Source: Vanrija pseudolonga | Lineage: Eukaryota; Basidiomycota; Tremellomycetes; Trichosporonales; Trichosporonaceae | Direction: 5' to 3' | Assembly (NCBI RefSeq): GCF_020906515.1 | Contig: NC_085849.1 | Span: forward strand, 434,001 to 498,000 | Length of the DNA: 64,000 nucleotides | Shown here: positions 15,199 through 25,702 of the stretch, piece by piece | Position numbering within the stretch: the stretch's first letter is position 1 | Layout: each line of letters begins with the position of its first letter | The notes under the pieces: model-generated | Told to the model about the DNA's origin: nothing | Databases searched by the model: none | The model's input: the letters and a program-made list of their open reading frames with translations, nothing else | Made by a program: the position numbers and the translations under genes

Positions 15199-17552
15199 AT
15201 GGTCCTCGACTTTATCGGCACGATCGACTCGGACGACGAGGAGCAGATCCTCGAAACTCCCCGCGCCGAGAGCAGCAAGCGGGCGTCGGCGGCGGGCGAG
15301 AAGACGGACGACCTCGACGCGGATTTCAACTTTGACCTCGGCGCGAACAATACCGAGGGTGTGCTCGACCTGTGGGGCGGCGACGAGGTCGAGGGCAAGG
15401 ACGCGCCCATTACCGTCGACGACATTATCGCCCGGAGGACGGGCAAGCCGCTCCAGAGCTACCGCGAGCGCAAGCGGAGAAGGGACGAGGGGGAGAGTGA
15501 TGAGGAGGAGAGCGGGAGTGAGGGAGATGAGGAGGGGAGCGATGGGGAGGATGATGAGGAGGAGGAGGGTGATGAGGAGGAGGGCGACGAGGAGGGTATG
15601 GACGTTGACGGCGACGAGGAGGAGGGCGACGACGACGACGACGAGGAAATCGAGGCCGACTCTGACGCCGACGCCGACTCCGACTCTGACGCCTCCGAAG
15701 TCGACGCCGCTGAAGAAGCCCGCAAAGACGCCTTCTTCTCCGCCGACCCAACAGCGACCCAGACCGACCTCCCCAGCACCTTTGCCTCGATGAACCTGTC
15801 GCGACCGCTCCTGCGCGCGCTCACCTCTCTCGGCTTTGCGGCACCCACGCCGATTCAGTCGCGCGCCGTCCCGCTCGCCCTCCTCGGCCGCGATATCCTC
15901 GGTTCCGCCGTGACGGGTTCCGGAAAGACCGGCGCGTTCATGATCCCCATCCTGGAGCGTCTGTCGTACCGCGACCGCGGGCGCGGTGGCCAGGCCTGCC
16001 GTGTGCTCGTGCTCTGCCCCACTCGTGAACTCGCAGTCCAGGTCGAGCAGGTCGGCAAGGCCCTCGCTGAGCGCGGCGGCCTCGACGTGCGCTTTGCGCT
16101 CCTTGTCGGTGGTCTCTCCCTCAACGCACAAGCCCACGCCCTCCGCACCCTCCCCGATATCCTTATCGCCACGCCCGGTCGTCTGATCGACCACTTGACC
16201 AACACCCCCTCGTTCACCCTCTCAGCCCTCGACATTCTCGTTATCGACGAAGCCGACCGCATGCTCGAGGCCGGTTTCACCGACGAACTCAACGAGATTG
16301 TCCGCCAGTGCCCGCGTAACCGCCAGACTATGCTGTTCTCGGCTACCATGTCCGACTCGGTCGACGAGCTGGTCAAGCTCTCGCTTGACAAGCCCGTCCG
16401 CGTGTTTGTCGATGCCAAGCGCCACACCGCTGCGGGTCTTACGCAGGAGTTTGTTCGCATCCGTGAGGACGACCTGCGATCACCGTCCCTCCTCACCCTC
16501 TGCCAGCGTACCGTTCGCGAACGCTGCATCATCTTCTTCCGATCCAAGGCGCTTGCACACCAGATGCGTGTCGTGTTTGGCCTCTTTGGCCTCAAGGCCG
16601 CCGAGCTGCACGGAAACCTCACCCAGGAGCAGCGTCTCGTCGCCCTCAACGACTTTAAGGCCGGCAAGGTCGACTACCTCCTTGCTACCGACCTCGCGTC
16701 GCGTGGTCTCGACATTAAGGGTGTCGAAACGGTTATCAACTATGACATGCCGGGTCAGCTGGCCCAGTACACCCACCGTGTTGGTCGTACTGCCCGTGCT
16801 GGACGCAAGGGTCGTTCGATCACCCTCGTGGGCGAAGTCGACCGCAAGATGCTCAAGGCTGTGATCAAGCAGTCCCAGGCCGACCAGATCCGCCACCGCA
16901 TCATCCCTGGCGAGGCAGTCTCTGCCATGGCTGAGAAGCTCGACGACCTCAAGGATGAAATCACCGACATTCTCAAGGAGGAGCGTGAAGAAAAGGCCAT
17001 GCGCCAGGCCGACATGGAGATCCGCAAGGGTCAGAACATGGTTGAGCACGAGGATGAGATCTTCTCGCGTCCTGCACGAACATGGTTCCAGTCGGAGAAG
17101 GAGAAGCAGACGGCCAAGGGTGAGTGAAACCGGCGGGTGGTGTACTGACGATTACAGAAGCTGGCAAGGCGGCCCACGCAGGCACCTCCAAGCAGGCCAA
17201 GGACGAACCCGCAAAGAAGAAGGAGAAGCACGGCAAGTACGACGGCATGTCGCGTAGGCAGAAGCGCCGCAAGATGGCCGCGGAGGAGGACGCAGCCGAC
17301 CAGGCGGCCTCGCAGCGTGTGTCGGCGGCTATCCGCAATGCAAAGAAGAAGGCGCGTCCGGGCAAGATCACCGAGCCGGTCAAGCCCGCTGGCAAGGCCA
17401 AGGCCAAGAGCGGCAAGAAGCCGGGCCCCAAGCGCAGCGCGTTTGACGACCACGAGGGGATGCGCGCCAAGCCGACAAAGGTCAACCTGAGCAAGAAGGG
17501 CAAGGGCGGCGGCAAGGGGGGTAAGGCGGGTAAGGGCAAGGGGAAGAAGTAG
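15199..17552 (+). CDS. DRS1: DEAD-box RNA helicase DRS1 (DDX27 family)
   Basis: A nucleolar ATP-dependent RNA helicase needed for 27S pre-rRNA processing and 60S subunit assembly. Exon 1 (15199-17119) and exon 2 (17158-17552) give 771 residues. An acidic N-terminal region (to about 190) is followed by the Q-motif region (GFAAPTPIQ), Walker A GSGKT near 240, PTREL, TPGR, DEAD as VIDEADRM near 349, SAT near 381, and HRVGRTARAGR near 525. The C-terminus is Lys-rich and ends in KGKGKK, a likely nucleolar signal. 'NLSRPLLRALTSLGF' and 'AALSAD/..DEAD.. MLEAGF' style signatures fit DRS1 better than other DEAD-box proteins such as RRP3 or DBP8. All helicase motifs are intact. It shares a short promoter region with the FHA/G-patch gene. 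Confidence 0.9.
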
Positions 17553-17789
17553 GCGGGGTGCATTTGCATAGAGTTTGGGCATGTATTCGGTATGCGTGAG
17601 GCGGGGACTGGGGCGAGGTGGAGCAGCAGTAGGGGTTGGTGGTCGGCACGATCGAATCGCAATCGGCAGACATGTGTCAAACATGCTGGCTAGGTCGGTC
17701 TCGCCACGACCTTGCGCTGCGACTTCCCGCAAGATGAGTCATCCTATCCATCGTCTATACAATCTACGGTGCAGCCCCCACGCCCACCC

Positions 17790-18765
17790 CTACCACTTGC
17801 GCGCGCCATGCTGGTACTGATAAATCCACGTCGCGTTCCACCCCCGCGTCCACCCGAGCCCCTCCCAAAGCTTCGCGCTGACCTCGTTGCCATTCTCGAC
17901 ATTGCAGTAGACTGGCACGCCGCGGGCCTCGAGGTCGCCGAGGTGTTTCGCGATCAGCACCTTGGCGAGCCCGCGGCGGCGGTACGCCGGCATGGTGTGC
18001 AGCGCGCCGACTGACCCGTCGCCGTGCGTCATGAACCATGCGACGGGGAGCGGGGTGGGCTCGCCGGGGGCGACGGTGGGCCGGAGGACGGTGGTGTGCG
18101 CTGCGCGCGAGGCGTAGTACTCTAGGCTGCGGTACTTGTTCTCTGCGAAGATCTGGAGAGCGTGAGCTACGCTTGTCGAGTCTGTGGCCGCCGGCCGCAC
18201 TCACCAACGCCGCGTCCTCTTCCCGCGCAAGCCCGAGCTCCAACCCATCAGTGTTCACCCCGCTCAGGTCCACCTTGGTGCCCCCCGGAGGAGCAAAGTA
18301 CGTCCAGTTGCGTCCGTGATCCGGGCCGCCGACATGCGCCTGCACGAACGGGCGGAAGACCTCTGGCACCTGCCCGACGACCCGCTGCGCGGGGTACAGC
18401 TTTGCCATTTCGTCGATAACCGCGTTGATCTCTGCGCCGGCGCGCGCGATGGTCTCGGGGGTTTGGCGGGCCGGGTAGTGCTGGAGCGAGTGGTAGACGC
18501 GGATCTGCTCCGAGGGCCGGGGGAGCGCGTACGCGATGACCCATGACTCGCCGGGTTGCAACGCTTCCCCGTTCTGGGCCGGCGGGAACGTCGCGTGGAT
18601 GGTCGACAGCACACCTGGCACCGGCAGCCCCTCGACCGGCCCCGCCTCGTCCTCGCTCGTCCGGTTGCACATGATTGACCCGACGGCCACGACCGTGTCC
18701 GGCAGGTCTTGTCGTAGGAACGGCAGGATCGCGTGCGGCTTGTGCGCGTACAGTGCGATTGTCAT
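17790..18765 (-). CDS. GNAT-family N-acetyltransferase
   Basis: Two exons (18765-18205 and 18152-17790) encode 307 residues. The C-terminal half is a GNAT fold: 'VAWFMTHGDGSVGALHTMP' forms the central strands, 'YRRRGLAKVLIAKHL' is the acetyl-CoA motif A, and 'VYCNVENGNEVSAKLWEGLGW' is motif B. The N-terminal half has no motif I can name, but two-part architecture resembles FR47-like and glycine N-acyltransferase-like members. Substrate unknown. The introns and start agree with the neighbours in style; the ATG at 18765 precedes a plausible hydrophobic strand. It is convergent with DRS1, with 237 bases between stops. Confidence 0.82.
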
Positions 18766-19468
18766 GGCGTAGTGTTGAGGGGTTGGGCAAAAGAAAGAGA
18801 GTTGAACCGCGCCGTTGTTGTTGATATAGTCGTTGTCGAGTGGAGAGTTGTGATGACGACCGACGAGCACCCGACTTGCCCGCCGAGTCGAACTTTTGCC
18901 GCGCGCTACGCACTGCCCGATCGCACAAACCCGATGTGAAGCGCCGGTGACTCGGCTCTAGCGATGGGTCCTGGTTTGGGCCGCTGCGTGTGACTCGAAC
19001 GTTCACCGTGGCTTGCATGCATTGAGACACTCCGATTCCCTCCAGTCGATGCGCTGCATGTGCAGCATGCATCTGTCAGTTGCCCGCGTTCGCAAGGATG
19101 AGAGGTTATCACACCATCCAGGATACCCGGTGCGGGCGTGGCACTTCGGGCCAGGCCGACTCGGTGCCGAGGTCGGCCTCTGGACGTCCTCTACACTCCC
19201 AGTCGTCCAGGCCGTCGACCCGAAACTATTAGCACTTCTGCTCATCAGCAGCAAAACGATGCATGGAGGCACGTGATGCTTTGGTGCATGCTGTTGCGAG
19301 TCGGGGTACCGTCTTGTGGTGCTGTGGTAGTAGAGTTTTCCGTATGGTGGTGAGAATAATCCGGCGTGGTACGTTATTTTTTCAGATAAACGATTGCATT
19401 CCGGTGAGCGAGGCGCCTAAGTTATCGTTCCTCTGTCGTTACATATGTACAAGATGTGAAAGTGGCGC
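18766..19468. other. Intergenic, no gene seen
   Basis: About 700 bases upstream of the GNAT gene. Base composition is less GC-rich toward 19370-19450. No open frame with splice sites or motifs was found. Several TGCATGCA-type words lie at 19015-19070. Confidence 0.45.
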
Positions 19469-20154
19469 CTATTCGGCATGGTCGCCAACAACCTCGCCAT
19501 GCTCGTCGAGTGACGCGAGAATCTCAGCTGGGTCGACGTCAGTTGGCTCAGGCAACAACGACCCACGCGTCAGACCCGGCACCTGCCAGCCATTGTCGAG
19601 GAGGTATCGCGCCAGGCGGTGGGGCTGAAACTGTTGCCTGTGTCGTCAGTGAAGGAAGGGTGAGACACTCACATGAAGGGGTCACCGCGCTTGCCAGCGT
19701 CATCCATTGCAAGACCCAGTGTCTTGGTGGAAAGGTGGTCGCACAACTGGTACCCAGCGTTGCCCCAGAGTGCGCCGGCAAGCATTGCGTTGAGCTGGAT
19801 CTTGCCGTCCTCATAGACGAGGAGGAGACGGGCGACCGAGTGGACCATGGTGACGACAGTCTTGCGCTGCCTGGCGATCGCATACAGGGCGTCGTTGTCC
19901 GCGTTGACGACTGCAAACAGGACAGCACGCTCGCCCGAGGCGCGGTAGGAGACGAGGTAGATGAGATCGGTGTCCACAAGGCTCCTCCAAACGGCGCGGT
20001 GCTCGTTCAGGTTGACGGGGTTACCCCAGCGAGCGGCCCTGTACACCGGCATGGGGCAAGGGGGGTGCGTGTCGAATGGGGGTGCGTCGGGATAAAGGTT
20101 TCCCTTCTCTGCCCACTCGTGCTGCTCGGCCAACTCGGCCTCGGTGGCTGGCAT
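19469..20154 (-). CDS. Tandem-array family protein A (unknown family)
   Basis: First of four related minus-strand genes. Exons 20154-19673 and 19637-19469 join to 216 residues. It shares with the other three an N-terminal 'PPCPMPVYRA' segment, a central 'VHSVARLLLVYEDGKIQLN' hydrophobic strand, 'ALWGNAGYQL', and after the conserved splice site 'FQPHRLARYLLDNGW' plus 'VPGLTRG'. Unlike B and D it shows no third coding exon. The first ATG follows a likely splice acceptor (CCTCAG then A-ATG), so a 5'-leader intron is probable. No signal peptide, membrane helix or known domain was recognised. Function unknown; the conserved Trp-Gly and N-G-W residues suggest a compact folded domain rather than disorder. 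Confidence 0.82.
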
Positions 20155-20428
20155 TCTGAGGCGTGTCAGCTCCACATGGTAGTGCGTTTACACGCGGTGT
20201 CTTTGGGGTGGATGGGCTGACCTGTTGTGTTGAGATAGTGTTGAATGACAAGACAGTTGATGTGCAGCGCCCTTCCTTTGCAGCTCACTCCTGGCGACGC
20301 ACTGCGACCGCCTAACCCGGCGTGCCAATCTCAACTCACTCACGACCACCCAACGCCAGGTTATCACCACTACATGCATGTCCGTATACCTCTCCATGGT
20401 CTTGCCGCCCGGAGCTTTCTTTGCCCCC

Positions 20429-21153
20429 TCACTCATCGGGGTCAGCCCACAGGTACCTCCGGATCGAGCGACCTTCGAGGTGGGCGGCGATGCGGTCGAA
20501 TCGGGTGAAGGAGCCATACACTCCCGCTTCAGTGTCAGAATGAACGCACATCAGACTTACGGGTCATACCCGGCACCTTCCAGCCATTGTTCTTGAGGTA
20601 GCGTGCGATGCGGTAGAGGCGGAAATGCTCGCTGTGGCGCGTCAGACTCGGACTTTAACGTGACCTACAGGAAAGAGTCGGCATACCGGGTCCTCGCGTC
20701 GACCTCGTTGAAGCCGAGCACAGAGGGCAAGAGCCTCATGCACAGCTCCACCCCGCCCTCGCCCCACAGCTTGCTCGCCAGCTCTTGGTTGAGTGAGAGC
20801 TCGCCCGCGCGAACAACGAGCAGAACGCGTGCGACAGAGTAGACACAGTTGAGCACCTTGCAGCGTTCGGCGTAGACCTGGTCCACGGCAGCCTGGTCCT
20901 CGGCCCGCAGGGCAGATACCATGACCTCGTACGACGTGCGGTAGCCGATGAGCTCAAGCGCCTCGTAGTCCATCAGTTCTTCCCAGGTCCAGTAACAGTG
21001 GCGGAAGTTGGACGGTATGCCGCTGGCTTCCCCGGCGTATGTCGGCATGGGGGCCGGGAGAAGAGACCCAAAGGACGGCAGGGGTGGGTTGAAGTGGTTC
21101 CGCTGGGTCCTCGGGACTTGCGTCGGCCTCATGCACTCGTCAGGAATCGTCAT
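20429..21153 (-). CDS. Tandem-array family protein B (unknown family)
   Basis: Exons 21153-20669, 20631-20561 and 20526-20429 join to 217 residues. Diagnostic shared parts are 'PAPMPTYAGE', 'NFRHCYWTWEELMDYEAL', 'NCVYSVARVLLVVRAGELSLN', 'KLWGEGGVELC', 'LGFNEVDA', then 'FRLYRIARYLKNNGWKVPGM' in the 71-base exon. The third exon (GVYGSFTRFD) aligns with that of gene D. The second intron is only about 34 bases, so its acceptor may be misplaced by a few bases. The first ATG lies two bases after a CTGCAG acceptor, again suggesting a leader intron. No known domain was recognised and no function is assigned. It sits 274 bases upstream of gene A. Confidence 0.82.
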
Positions 21154-21408
21154 ATCTGCAGTGTGTGTGAGTGTAGGTAGGGTGGGTGCGGCGATAGGAC
21201 TGACTCGAGACGTGGTGAAGAGATGGATTGGACAGAAGCAGAACTGGTGGCGCCCCTTCCTTTATTCGTTGGCACTGCTTGACCTTCAAACGCAGCGACC
21301 AACATGGGTGCCCCCTTATCTCGCAGCACACACCCCGTGTGTACTCCAGTCTACGAGCTCAATGCTCTCATTCCAATCCACCCCAGATGCATGCCACAAA
21401 GAAACCCC

Positions 21409-22231
21409 TCAACCCGAGACCCCAAACATAGAAGTCACGAAGCCTCGCAGCCTCGTCCACGCCTTCTGCCACCCACCAGTGCTCCCAGAATAGAAGGAAT
21501 CGATGTTATGCAAATGGCGGGTGTCGGGTGTTACGATCCAACCTTTAACGAAAGGCTTGCGAGGGCGGTGGCCAAACTTGGTGAGCGAGGCGTAGACGGC
21601 GATTGTGTCGTCATGTGGTTAGAGAACTACCACATGCCACAACGAACAAATAACCCACGAGGCATACCCGGCACCGACCACCCGCACACCTTGTAGTATC
21701 GCGCCAGCTTATGGAGGCGCGACTGCTCGCTTCCGTTAGACTGCACCAGCCGTGACGTACTTACAAGAAGGGGTCTTCAAACTCCATCGCCGCATCGACG
21801 GCTGGAAAGCCGAGCGCCTCAGGCGTGAGACTGGCGCACAGCTCGGCGCCCGCAGCGCCCCAGAGCTCGGTAGCGAGGGGAGTGTTGAGTGCGAGCTCTC
21901 CGTCTCTCACAACGAGAAGAATTCGGGCGATGGAGTAGACAAACTGCGTCACCTTGGTCACGTCGGCGTAGACTTGGTCGAGCCTCGCCTGGTCGCGGTC
22001 CACCATGGCGTCTACCGCCAGGTCCCGCCCGACGGCGCCACCGACAACAAGCGCCGCGGCGCTGTAGTCCATCAAGGCTGTCCATGCCGCGCGATACTCG
22101 CACAGGTTAGATGGGCAGCCCCAAGTCTCGCCGGCGTACACTGGCACGGGGCAGGGTGGAAGAGAGGTGAAGTCTGGCGGTAAGGCGACAAAGGGGTTCG
22201 GCTGCCAAGGCTCCGCCTGTGTCGGTGTCAT
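21409..22231 (-). CDS. Tandem-array family protein C (unknown family), 3' splice site odd
   Basis: Exon 1 (22231-21765) and the 71-base exon 2 (21729-21659) match paralogues B and D: 'PPCPVPVYAGE', 'NLCEYRAAWTALMDYSA', 'QFVYSIARILLVVRDGELALN', 'ELWGAAGAELC', 'LHKLARYYKVCGW'. A frame homologous to exon 3 of B and D (VYASLTKFGHRPRK) is open down to a TGA at 21409, but no AG acceptor lies just before it. If intron 2 is kept, translation stops at 21627-21629. Exon 1 may extend upstream of 22231, because the bases before that ATG still encode residues similar to the start of D (TDFDPEV against SIDFN). Function unknown. The gene may be decaying or may use an unseen splice site. Confidence 0.68.
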
Positions 22232-22571
22232 GCAGACCTCCGGGTCGAAATCGGTGCAAGCTGGGGAGTATCAGTGTTCGTGTTGGAGCACCTCCAGGCT
22301 ACCCACCGCGTAACCATGTCGCGAAGCCAGGTGTGTATAATAATGGTGCTGATGTGAGAAGTTGGTGTGGAGACGTATCGGTTTCCAAGGTCCCTCCCTC
22401 ACATACTGCTCACGCCCGACCTGGAACCAGAGTGGCCGTAGCAGGTGCCCCCGCCACCCAGTTCAAACACTGCTGCGAGAATACCGTCACACGCCTATCA
22501 TTGCATGTCCATCTGTAGCATGTCACTCTGCCCTTGGACCCATGCCCCTTACATACACATGAACTACATTC
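22232..22571. other. Spacer between array genes D and C
   Basis: About 340 bases that should hold the promoter and 5' leader of gene C. A CCCCAG acceptor at about 22261 followed by in-frame coding-like sequence hints that a short first exon of C lies here, but its donor could not be fixed. Confidence 0.4.
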
Positions 22572-23311
22572 CTACTCCCGAGGACTGATCTCGAAAACCT
22601 TGCGCGGCGCGTGGTCGAACTGGGAGAACGACGCGAACACTACAGCTGGGTTACTCAGAACGGCGCAGCTGCCGGGGGTACATCGATGCACTTACGCGTC
22701 ATGCCCGGCACCGACCAGCCATTGGACTCGAGATGGCGCGCAATCGTGTGGAGGCGGAGCTCCTCGCTGTGGTGTCAGAGGCAGACCGAAGAGTCAACAT
22801 ACAAGAAGCGGTCCTCCAATTGCTCCGCGGCGTCGACAGCGGGGCAGCCGAGGATGTCAGGGTCGAGCCTGCCTAACAGCTCGTTGCCTTTGACACCCCA
22901 GAGCTCGTAGGCGAGCTCCGAGTTAAGCTGAAGCTTGTCGTTGTCGTTCACAAAGAGGAGGATGCGAGCGACCGAGTAGACAAAGGTGAGAACCTTGCGG
23001 CGGTCGTCGTAGATCTTGTCAATCGTCGTCACGTCGGCAGAAGCCAGGGGGATTTGGATGGCCATGTCGGACACTCCGACGCCGATGAGTGGGAGGACGT
23101 CCGTATCCATTCGGAGCATCCACTCGGTGTGGAACATCTCGAGGTTGGACGGCAGGCGGCGCGGCTTGCTGTCGTACGCGGGCATCGTGCACGGCGGGAG
23201 CGTGACGACGTTGGGCCTGGCAGGCACCATGGGGTCGTCCGGGTTGTCGGAGTGCGTTGGGACGATGTACTGCGCTGGCAGCTCCATATTAAAGTCGATG
23301 GACGGATACAT
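22572..23311 (-). CDS. Tandem-array family protein D (unknown family)
   Basis: Exons 23311-22803, 22766-22696 and 22645-22572 join to 217 residues, the same length as B. The family pattern is clear: 'PPCTMPAYDSK', 'TFVYSVARILLFVNDNDKLQ', 'YELWGVKGNELLGRLDPDI', 'LGCPAVDA', 'LRLHTIARHLESNGWSVPGM', and third-exon 'VFASFSQFDHAPRK'. A leader intron (GTGAGC donor, CGTCAG acceptor) ends one base before the ATG. It is the first gene of the array in the direction of transcription. Divergence between members is high in the N-terminal half and low around the VYSVAR strand and the ARYL..NGW motif, pointing to old duplications under selection. No function assigned. Confidence 0.85.
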
Positions 23312-24180
23312 TCTGACGGTCAGCAGAGTCTGGGGCAGGGAAGTGGGTGTGCTCACTTGGGTTTGGGGAGAGTTGATAGACGACAAAAGGGACAACCACC
23401 ATTCAGTCGTCTTATGAGCTTTCGCCGGCGCCAGTAGCACAGCTGCTTGGGGCGTGAGAGGAGACGACGAGCAAGATGACACCCTTCATCTTCCTCGTCC
23501 ATGCACGTCTGTTGGATGCGTGGAGGACGCCCCGCGCCCCGAATGAGTGTGCAGTGTGTGAGTGTGTGCCATCCACCATGTCTCGACAACACGAGGTCTC
23601 AACCGTGACGTCATTTATCATTACGTAAGTCGTCTGCTCGTGGCACTATCTCCCTTCCCCTCTCGCCTTTATCTCCATTCAGCGATTATTATCTCTTGGT
23701 ATCGCCGAGATAAGACTTGACCATCGACGTCCGCTCGCATGCGCCGCAGAGCCAGATAAACGGCTTGCAGTGCGGCGCAGACCTGAATCGTACAGGGACA
23801 GGCCGATAGTCAGCCGATCAGTCAGTTGCCGCGCCGTCAGTAGGCTGGAAGCTTACCACCAATGCCACCACTGCTCGAGAGACCAAGCACTGCGCTCGCA
23901 CGCGAGGGAGGCGGCCGCGAAGCGGCCGCCGACCCCCTCCGCGCCCGTAAGGGCGCGGGCCTCCCCAAACGTCCCCAGATCGCTAACAGAGCATAGCCCG
24001 GCATCCAACATCGACCCTACCGCGTTCGGCGCTCATTATTTCTTCGGCAGACCGATTGCATCACAGGGGAATGAAGACGGGGGCCTTGTGATAGCGAGCC
24101 CACTTCCCTACTAATGCCACGCGCGCCCCCCCGCACCAGAGTGTTCCTACATACACAATACCATGTTACACAGTGCGAAT
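23312..24180. other. Intergenic with hairpins and an inverted gene fragment
   Basis: Between the array and glutamine synthetase. It holds the array promoter side, a perfect palindrome-like hairpin at 23909-23930 (GGCGGCCGC, GAA, GCGGCCGCC), a second short hairpin at 23941-23956, and the inverted copy of the glutamine synthetase last-exon junction at 23960-24031. No independent gene was found. Confidence 0.55.
23960..24031 (+). repeat. Inverted partial copy of glutamine synthetase last intron/exon junction
   Basis: These 72 bases are the reverse complement of 24214-24287, with about 58 consecutive identical bases and two one-base indels. The copied part covers the end of the last glutamine synthetase intron, its acceptor, and about 36 coding bases. 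The 180-odd bases between the arms include the gene's final codons and 3' flank. The arms could pair in a read-through transcript. Confidence 0.88.
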
Positions 24181-25702
24181 TTAGGCGTTGAGGATCGTAG
24201 TCTCCACCAGGATCGCCGTAACGCGGTATGGGTCGATGTTGGATGCCGGGCTATGCTCTGTTAGCGATCTGGGGACGTTTGGGGAGGTGTAGGAAGAGAA
24301 AGAGGAGGTAGAGGAGGGTTGTGGAAGGAGCTGTGGACGAGTGTGGAAGTGCCACACCGCCACAACCTCCACCACGGAACCAAATGCGGAACCAAATGGG
24401 GAACCCAAGCGGAACCAAATTGGTTCTCGTGATAATGGGGTGATAGTAGAGGGTTATGATTGTGATAAGATACTCACCGACGGTCCTCGAGGTAACCGTA
24501 GCCCTGGGCACCGACGTGACGGGGGATACGGATGGAGGCACCACGGTTGGCGACACCAGCCGAGAAGGTGTTGAGCGAGGCAGTCTCGTGGCGGCCGGTA
24601 AGACGCTGGTCGTTGTCCTCGCCGTAGACGGCAATGTGCTCGAGGTGGCGCTTCTCAAGCTTCTTGATGGCGTCCTCGATGGCGGCAAGGCCCTTGCCGG
24701 GGGTACGCATGGCCTTGGTCGAGTAGTTGGAGTGGCAGCCGGCACCGTTCCAGTCGCCCTTGAGGGGCTTGGGGTGGAACGAGGGGCGGATGCCCCACTC
24801 CTCACCGATGCGGAGGAGGAGGAAGCGGGCGATCCAGAGGTGGTCACCGAGCTCGATGCCCTCACAAGGGCCGACCTGGAACTCCCACTGCGAGGGCATG
24901 ACCTCGGCGTTGATGCCCGAGATCTTGACACCGGCGTAGAGACAGGCGCGGTAGTGGGCCTCGATGAAGTCACGGGCAAAGACCTTGCCGGCGCCGACAC
25001 CGCAGTAGTAGGGGCCCTGGGGACCGGGGAAACCGTTCTTGGGCCAGCCAAAGACCTGTCCGTCGGCGTCGAAGAGGGTGTACTCCTGCTCAAGGCCGAA
25101 CCAGGGCTCGACGTCCTTGGCGGCGTCCATCACCTTCTTGGCGTGGGCACGGTGGTTGGACGAGTTGGGGGTGCCGTCGTTGTCGTAGGTCTCACAGAGG
25201 ACAAGGATGTTGGCACCGCCACGGAAAGGATCCCTGAAGATGGCAACGGGGCGCTGTTGTGTGTGTGAGCGGTGGGCGTGGCAGGCCGTTGCGGGCGTGG
25301 CGGGATTGACACGGGTGCAAACCCTAAGCTGTACTCACGAGGTAGACATCAGAGTTGTCGCCGGGGGCCTGGTTGGTCGACGAGCCGTCAAAGTTCCACT
25401 CGCGGAGGTCGGCAACCGACTTGGGGGCCTCGTCGAGGGTCATGGTCTTGCAACGGAGGCCTCCGTCACCGTCGATCCAGATGTCTGTGGCATCGCGTCA
25501 GCCTTGCTCCACGAACTACGCGACGGCTCCACTAAAAAGCACCCGTCGCCATGACGTGGTAGTTTTCGGGTGTGCCAAGGCAACCTTGGCCCCGCAGCAG
25601 CCAAACAGCTTACTCACACTCAGCCTGAACGCTGGAGCCCTGGTCGAGGGCCATGTAAGGCGCGAGGAGGTCGACGCGCTTGGTGGCGATGATGTTCGAC
25701 AT
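24181..25702 (-). CDS. GLN1: Glutamine synthetase
   Basis: Catalyses ATP-dependent joining of ammonia to glutamate, the entry point of nitrogen assimilation. Four exons (25702-25618, 25484-25339, 25253-24478, 24250-24181) join to 358 residues, the usual eukaryotic type II length. Visible signatures: '[14 protein letters not shown]', '[19 protein letters not shown]', '[12 protein letters not shown]' with metal-binding Glu, '[17 protein letters not shown]', ATP-binding '[18 protein letters not shown]', '[19 protein letters not shown]', and C-terminal '[20 protein letters not shown]'. Active-site residues are complete. The last intron is 227 bases, long for this window, with repeated GGTTCC words. 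Its 3' junction is duplicated in inverted orientation 180 bases downstream of the gene. Confidence 0.96.

Follow-up and report, generated by a model that had tools for sequence, protein, structure and literature searches.

The Gene Array and Its Neighborhood

Vanrija pseudolonga is a soil yeast belonging to the Trichosporonales of the Basidiomycota, and its assembly consists of 24.87 Mb in 9 contigs. The window, namely the whole 64,000-nucleotide stretch of DNA analyzed here, corresponds to contig bases 434001–498000. Four head-to-tail genes, A, B, C and D, fill the interval 23311–19469 on the minus strand of the window, exactly where the original prediction had placed four paralogues in a row. 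The second exon lies in an 83-nt repeat whose successive occurrences are 994, 1098 and 1037 bases apart, corresponding to an array spacing of about 1.0–1.1 kb. With four homologous, adjacent and regularly spaced genes on one strand, the locus is a tandem paralogous array. The genes flanking it are ordinary: a glutamine synthetase borders one end, and a DEAD-box helicase and a mitochondrial carrier lie past the opposite end. No Pfam match is found within 17764–18762 in the frame tried. The features of the locus are as follows.

22572..23311, minus strand, gene A: exons 23311-22803 (509 bases), 22766-22696 (71) and 22645-22572 (74); 217 aa
21627..22231, minus strand, gene B: exons 22231-21765 (467 bases) and 21729-21659 (71), read-through to a stop at 21627; 189 aa
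21409..21618, minus strand, exon-3-like frame 3' of gene B: IAVYASLTKFGHRPRK, compared with PVVFASFSQFDHAPRK of gene A exon 3; homology judged by eye
20429..21153, minus strand, gene C: exons 21153-20669 (485 bases), 20631-20561 (71) and 20526-20429 (98); 217 aa
19469..20154, minus strand, gene D: exons 20154-19673 (482 bases), 19637-19567 (71) and 19527-19469 (59); 203 aa
12501-12944, mitochondrial carrier exon (Pfam), on one flank of the array
15199-17118, DEAD-box helicase (Pfam), on the same flank as the mitochondrial carrier exon
24474-25334, glutamine synthetase (Pfam), on the opposite flank

Exon Structure

The second exon, predicted to be 71 bases long in B, C and D, has this length in A as well (four of four copies). 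The seven fitted introns are 34–50 nt long (36 and 50 nt in gene A) and all have GT–AG ends. A YTRAY motif resembling a branch point lies 6–11 nt from the acceptor in six of them, the exception being intron 2 of gene A; in intron 1 of gene B, CTAAC stands 6 nt ahead of the AAG acceptor. Neither a stop codon nor a frameshift interrupts exons 1 and 2 in any of the four copies. Every unit has its own ATG, and A, C and D each have their own third exon.

The register of the third exons of A, C and D was set by the public model of D together with the V. albida protein Q8F55_001427, which reads PGLTPEILASLD, matching D. Both carry TPEILASLD at the third-exon junction, and models with acceptors further downstream in A and C (215 aa each) or with read-through in D (216 aa) were accordingly dropped. 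The lengths of 216, 217 and 217 residues given earlier for A, B and D are thereby replaced by 217, 189 and 203, with 217 for C, and the claimed agreement in length is weaker than it appeared, D being shorter and B perhaps decaying at its 3' end. The first gene models served as queries for the gene C protein search and for the Toprim_4 score and entered the first alignment, and the revised models entered alignment A3, which has five members and in which B is represented by its first 179 residues, up to the end of exon 2.

In the exon-3-like frame 3' of gene B, the AG acceptor is absent at the homologous start, and the tail is longer than that of A. Since the acceptor is missing there, gene B probably ends early or decays at its 3' end, as far as the genomic sequence tells. 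Just upstream of the ATG of B and in frame with it, positions 22231–22270 of the minus strand read FDPEVCMTPTQ, which is similar to the start of C, IPDECMRPTQ. On this resemblance, gene B may start in an upstream exon.

The public annotation departs from these models. When gene C was used as the protein query, the match was LOC62_01G000210 (P0001; 351 residues), which is 100% identical over 70% of the query and fuses C with D, starting at residue 36 of C and skipping the third exon of C. LOC62_01G000212 (P0002) corresponds to gene A with a 49-residue N-terminal extension. The protein searches returned no public record of B, which may be deposited with a length that the search range did not include. 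The corrected models are thus supplied for a family that is fused and truncated in the public annotation.

Conservation, Selection and Phylogeny

The pairwise protein identity among A–D is 33–50%. In the alignment of A–D with the V. albida protein, 29 of the 170 ungapped columns are invariant, compared with a mean of 0.009 and a maximum of 1 in 1000 residue shuffles. The conserved motifs reported earlier are present but vary among the copies, and PPCPMPVY is exact only in D, the other copies reading PPCTMPAY (A), PPCPVPVY (B) and LPAPMPTY (C). Nei–Gojobori dN/dS values are 0.40–0.66 over the six pairs, with 95% bootstrap upper limits of 0.61–0.96, below 1 in every pair, and another alignment gives 0.44–0.62. 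Codon-position identity is lowest at the third position in all six pairs. Since dS is near saturation (0.94–1.51 by the simple method), the dN/dS values are rough. The invariant columns and the upper limits bear out the view that the family is real, and it is under moderate purifying selection, with dN/dS known only roughly.

The only V. albida protein returned by the searches, Q8F55_001427 (P0003; 188 aa), shares 47% of 188 aligned residues with D and shows 30–38% identity to A–C. D is its closest copy, and the two have motifs in common, including the TPEILASLD junction. It is therefore a candidate orthologue of D, judged by similarity. In the tree, a branch with 99.8/100 support separates D and the V. 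albida protein from A, B and C. The tree has no outgroup and was rooted at the longest internal branch. If this root is correct, the divergence of the D line from the A/B/C line predates the split between the two species; given a tree of this kind, the root could also lie on the V. albida branch.

Distribution and Detectability

A five-member profile was searched against 5.8 billion proteins, and among 6960 candidates scored, only P0001, P0002 and P0003 were found at E values up to 10. Viral contigs (2 patterns, 30 stretches) and prokaryotic contigs (6 patterns derived from P0003 alone, 24 stretches) yielded no confirmed relative. No description of the A–D family was found in those parts of the literature that were searched, including PMC12820176 and the abstract of PMC7660931.

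Searches of the V. pseudolonga genome gave 9 matches with A (as P0002), 6 with B, 4 with exon 1 of C, 6 with D and 5 with the V. albida protein, all inside the cluster except for two weak ones (E 0.047 and E 0.03). The former, at C7:302440, covers only the N-terminal extension of P0002 and was judged to be a chance match. The latter, at C3:1482913, matches B with 32% identity over residues 15–90. In tblastn, A (25 residues, E 0.72) and the V. albida protein (60 columns, E 0.75) match the same site too, C does so over a shorter stretch (12 residues, E 2.2), and D gives no match. The family profile scores this site at 6.3 bits, and an unrelated frame of the window also reaches 6.3 bits, compared with 222–239 bits for the four core frames of the array and 37–45 bits for four further array frames. 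As its profile score is no better than that of an unrelated frame, C3:1482913 was rejected as a family member and is probably a chance match. Within the surrounding locus (L030; C3:1481400-1484900), positions 1514–1789 show 31% identity over 93 positions to the N-terminal half of B and do not contain the family core.

The bit score of D falls from 468 against itself to 174 against the V. albida protein, a ratio of 0.37. With such a ratio within one genus, loss of detectability is expected at little over twice that distance: by our own arithmetic, relatives so far away would score about 45 bits at the same decay, near the limit of a search of 5.8 billion sequences, and the protein search relies on shared 5-residue words. 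This loss with distance agrees with the null model as outlined in PMC7660931. Fast divergence would thus largely predict the orphan status of the family, and its absence beyond Vanrija is weak evidence of novelty. Because the orphan status is predicted in this way, the family is not evidence for a new kind of system.

Domain Searches, Predicted Structure and Protein Properties

In agreement with the earlier statement that no domain is recognizable, searches of the members against Pfam and NCBIfam found no known family, giving only weak single-member matches, and the best hit of a PDB sequence search was not under E 0.47. Toprim_4 (PF13662) was rejected, matching one of five members at 17.9 bits against a curated cut-off of 25. 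The label 'PAS domain-containing' of P0002 is automatic, and its precomputed Pfam entry is '-'. No PAS family occurs among Pfam matches up to E 10, with HMMER filters on, for the five A3 members that the scan covered, the 49-residue extension of P0002 being covered by the precomputed '-' alone. The label was therefore set aside for lack of Pfam support. A loose resemblance to the BTB/POZ domain, in the pattern of hydrophobic helix, G-x-L turn and helix, was tested, and no Pfam BTB match occurs in the family members. A profile comparison of the family with three BTB stretches from the same genome gave probabilities of 0.1–0.2, but the positive control of BTB against BTB was likewise not recognized (6.4), so that this comparison speaks neither for nor against BTB, although the same method joined the two halves of the family itself at 99.9.

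AlphaFold models of the V. albida protein (5 alignment rows) and the public A protein (8 rows, overlapping with the former) have mean pLDDT values of 58.3 and 57.5, rising in the central parts to about 70–76 and 69–83, respectively. In both of these low-confidence models, the N-terminus is mostly disordered or of low confidence. The best-scored part consists of a long helix, a beta-hairpin at LLVV..G.L.LN and one or two helices with LWGxxGxEL, and exons 2 and 3 encode short C-terminal helices. The core prediction thus yields the same order of helices and hairpin in both models, at low overall confidence, and fold searches with these two models gave no reliable match.

Consistently with the earlier remark that no secretion signal is visible, the first 20 residues lack hydrophobic character in all four copies, with a mean hydropathy of −0.04 to −1.31, which argues against a signal peptide, the true start of B being uncertain. 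The net charge is negative in all four (−2 to −13). The best 19-residue hydropathy of gene A is 1.64, a value at the conventional limit for a membrane-spanning segment. By eye, most of the invariant positions carry structural residues (P, G, W, L, A, V), and no obvious catalytic set is among them; some are polar (D, N, S, R), and given these an enzymatic role is possible.

Origin and Possible Role of the Array

The reading we favor, with somewhat better than even confidence, is a four-copy tandem array of a gene for a small soluble protein, restricted to Vanrija as far as can be detected, held under moderate purifying selection and shaped by duplication and decay, its products probably binding partners. 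Tandem duplication would have made a lineage-restricted family of four copies, and the array would change by further duplication and decay, B being the copy with a degenerate third exon. Each protein is predicted to be an intracellular, soluble helical domain with a disordered, proline-containing N-terminal tail. Partner binding, as an adaptor or regulatory module, would be the most likely mode of action, over that of an enzyme or a secreted factor. The surface, defense or niche role put forward in the original prediction is unsupported, as tandem duplication alone shows no role. The array looks like an ordinary fungal tandem family restricted to one lineage. Fast-changing small-gene families of this kind are common in fungi.

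Compatible with the tandem array is a distinct, though lesser, possibility that A–D are fast-evolving members of a known and widespread fungal family whose homology is too weak for sequence searches. The drop in the score of D within a single genus and the dependence of the protein search on short shared words argue for it, but there is no Pfam or NCBIfam match repeated across members, no PDB sequence match below E 0.47 and no fold match at E 0.001, although models of this quality do not settle the last point. A genus-restricted family of undescribed fold, forming an old tandem set in which the split between the D type and the A/B/C type predates that of V. pseudolonga and V. albida, is unlikely. 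An origin de novo in Vanrija with a new fold is very improbable: only three proteins, all from Vanrija, were recovered at E up to 10, but detection failure accounts for an identical absence.

Two further explanations concern the genes themselves. The lack of a usable third-exon acceptor in B and the fairly high dN/dS would fit an array made mostly of pseudogenes or unexpressed remnants; this is quite improbable, as the first two exons are intact in all four copies and the dN/dS limits stay below 1 in all six pairs. No more credible than this is the annotation of C and D as a single two-domain gene of 351 residues, as in LOC62_01G000210, because that model loses the first 35 residues and the third exon of C, because C and D each have their own ATG and third exon, and because the V. 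albida relative, at 188 residues, comprises only one unit. On the favored reading of a tandem array subject to duplication and decay, the A–D family names no new mechanism, and it offers a modest case in which to ask whether tandem genes confined to one genus are new or have diverged past detection.

Other Features of the Window

The interval separating gene A from the glutamine synthetase gene contains an inverted repeat with arms at 23960–24017 and 24230–24287, which is perfect over 58 nt and 96% identical over about 77 nt, with the arms 212 nt apart. A genome search matched it at one locus at least, its own site, and a repeated mobile element is not indicated in the assembly. Long antisense frames, open from stop to stop, run opposite two of the genes, at 19408–20220 of the plus strand (270 aa) opposite D and at 22877–23437 of the plus strand (186 aa) opposite A. 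They are probably a by-product of the high third-position G+C, which is 0.77 in D and 0.84 in A.
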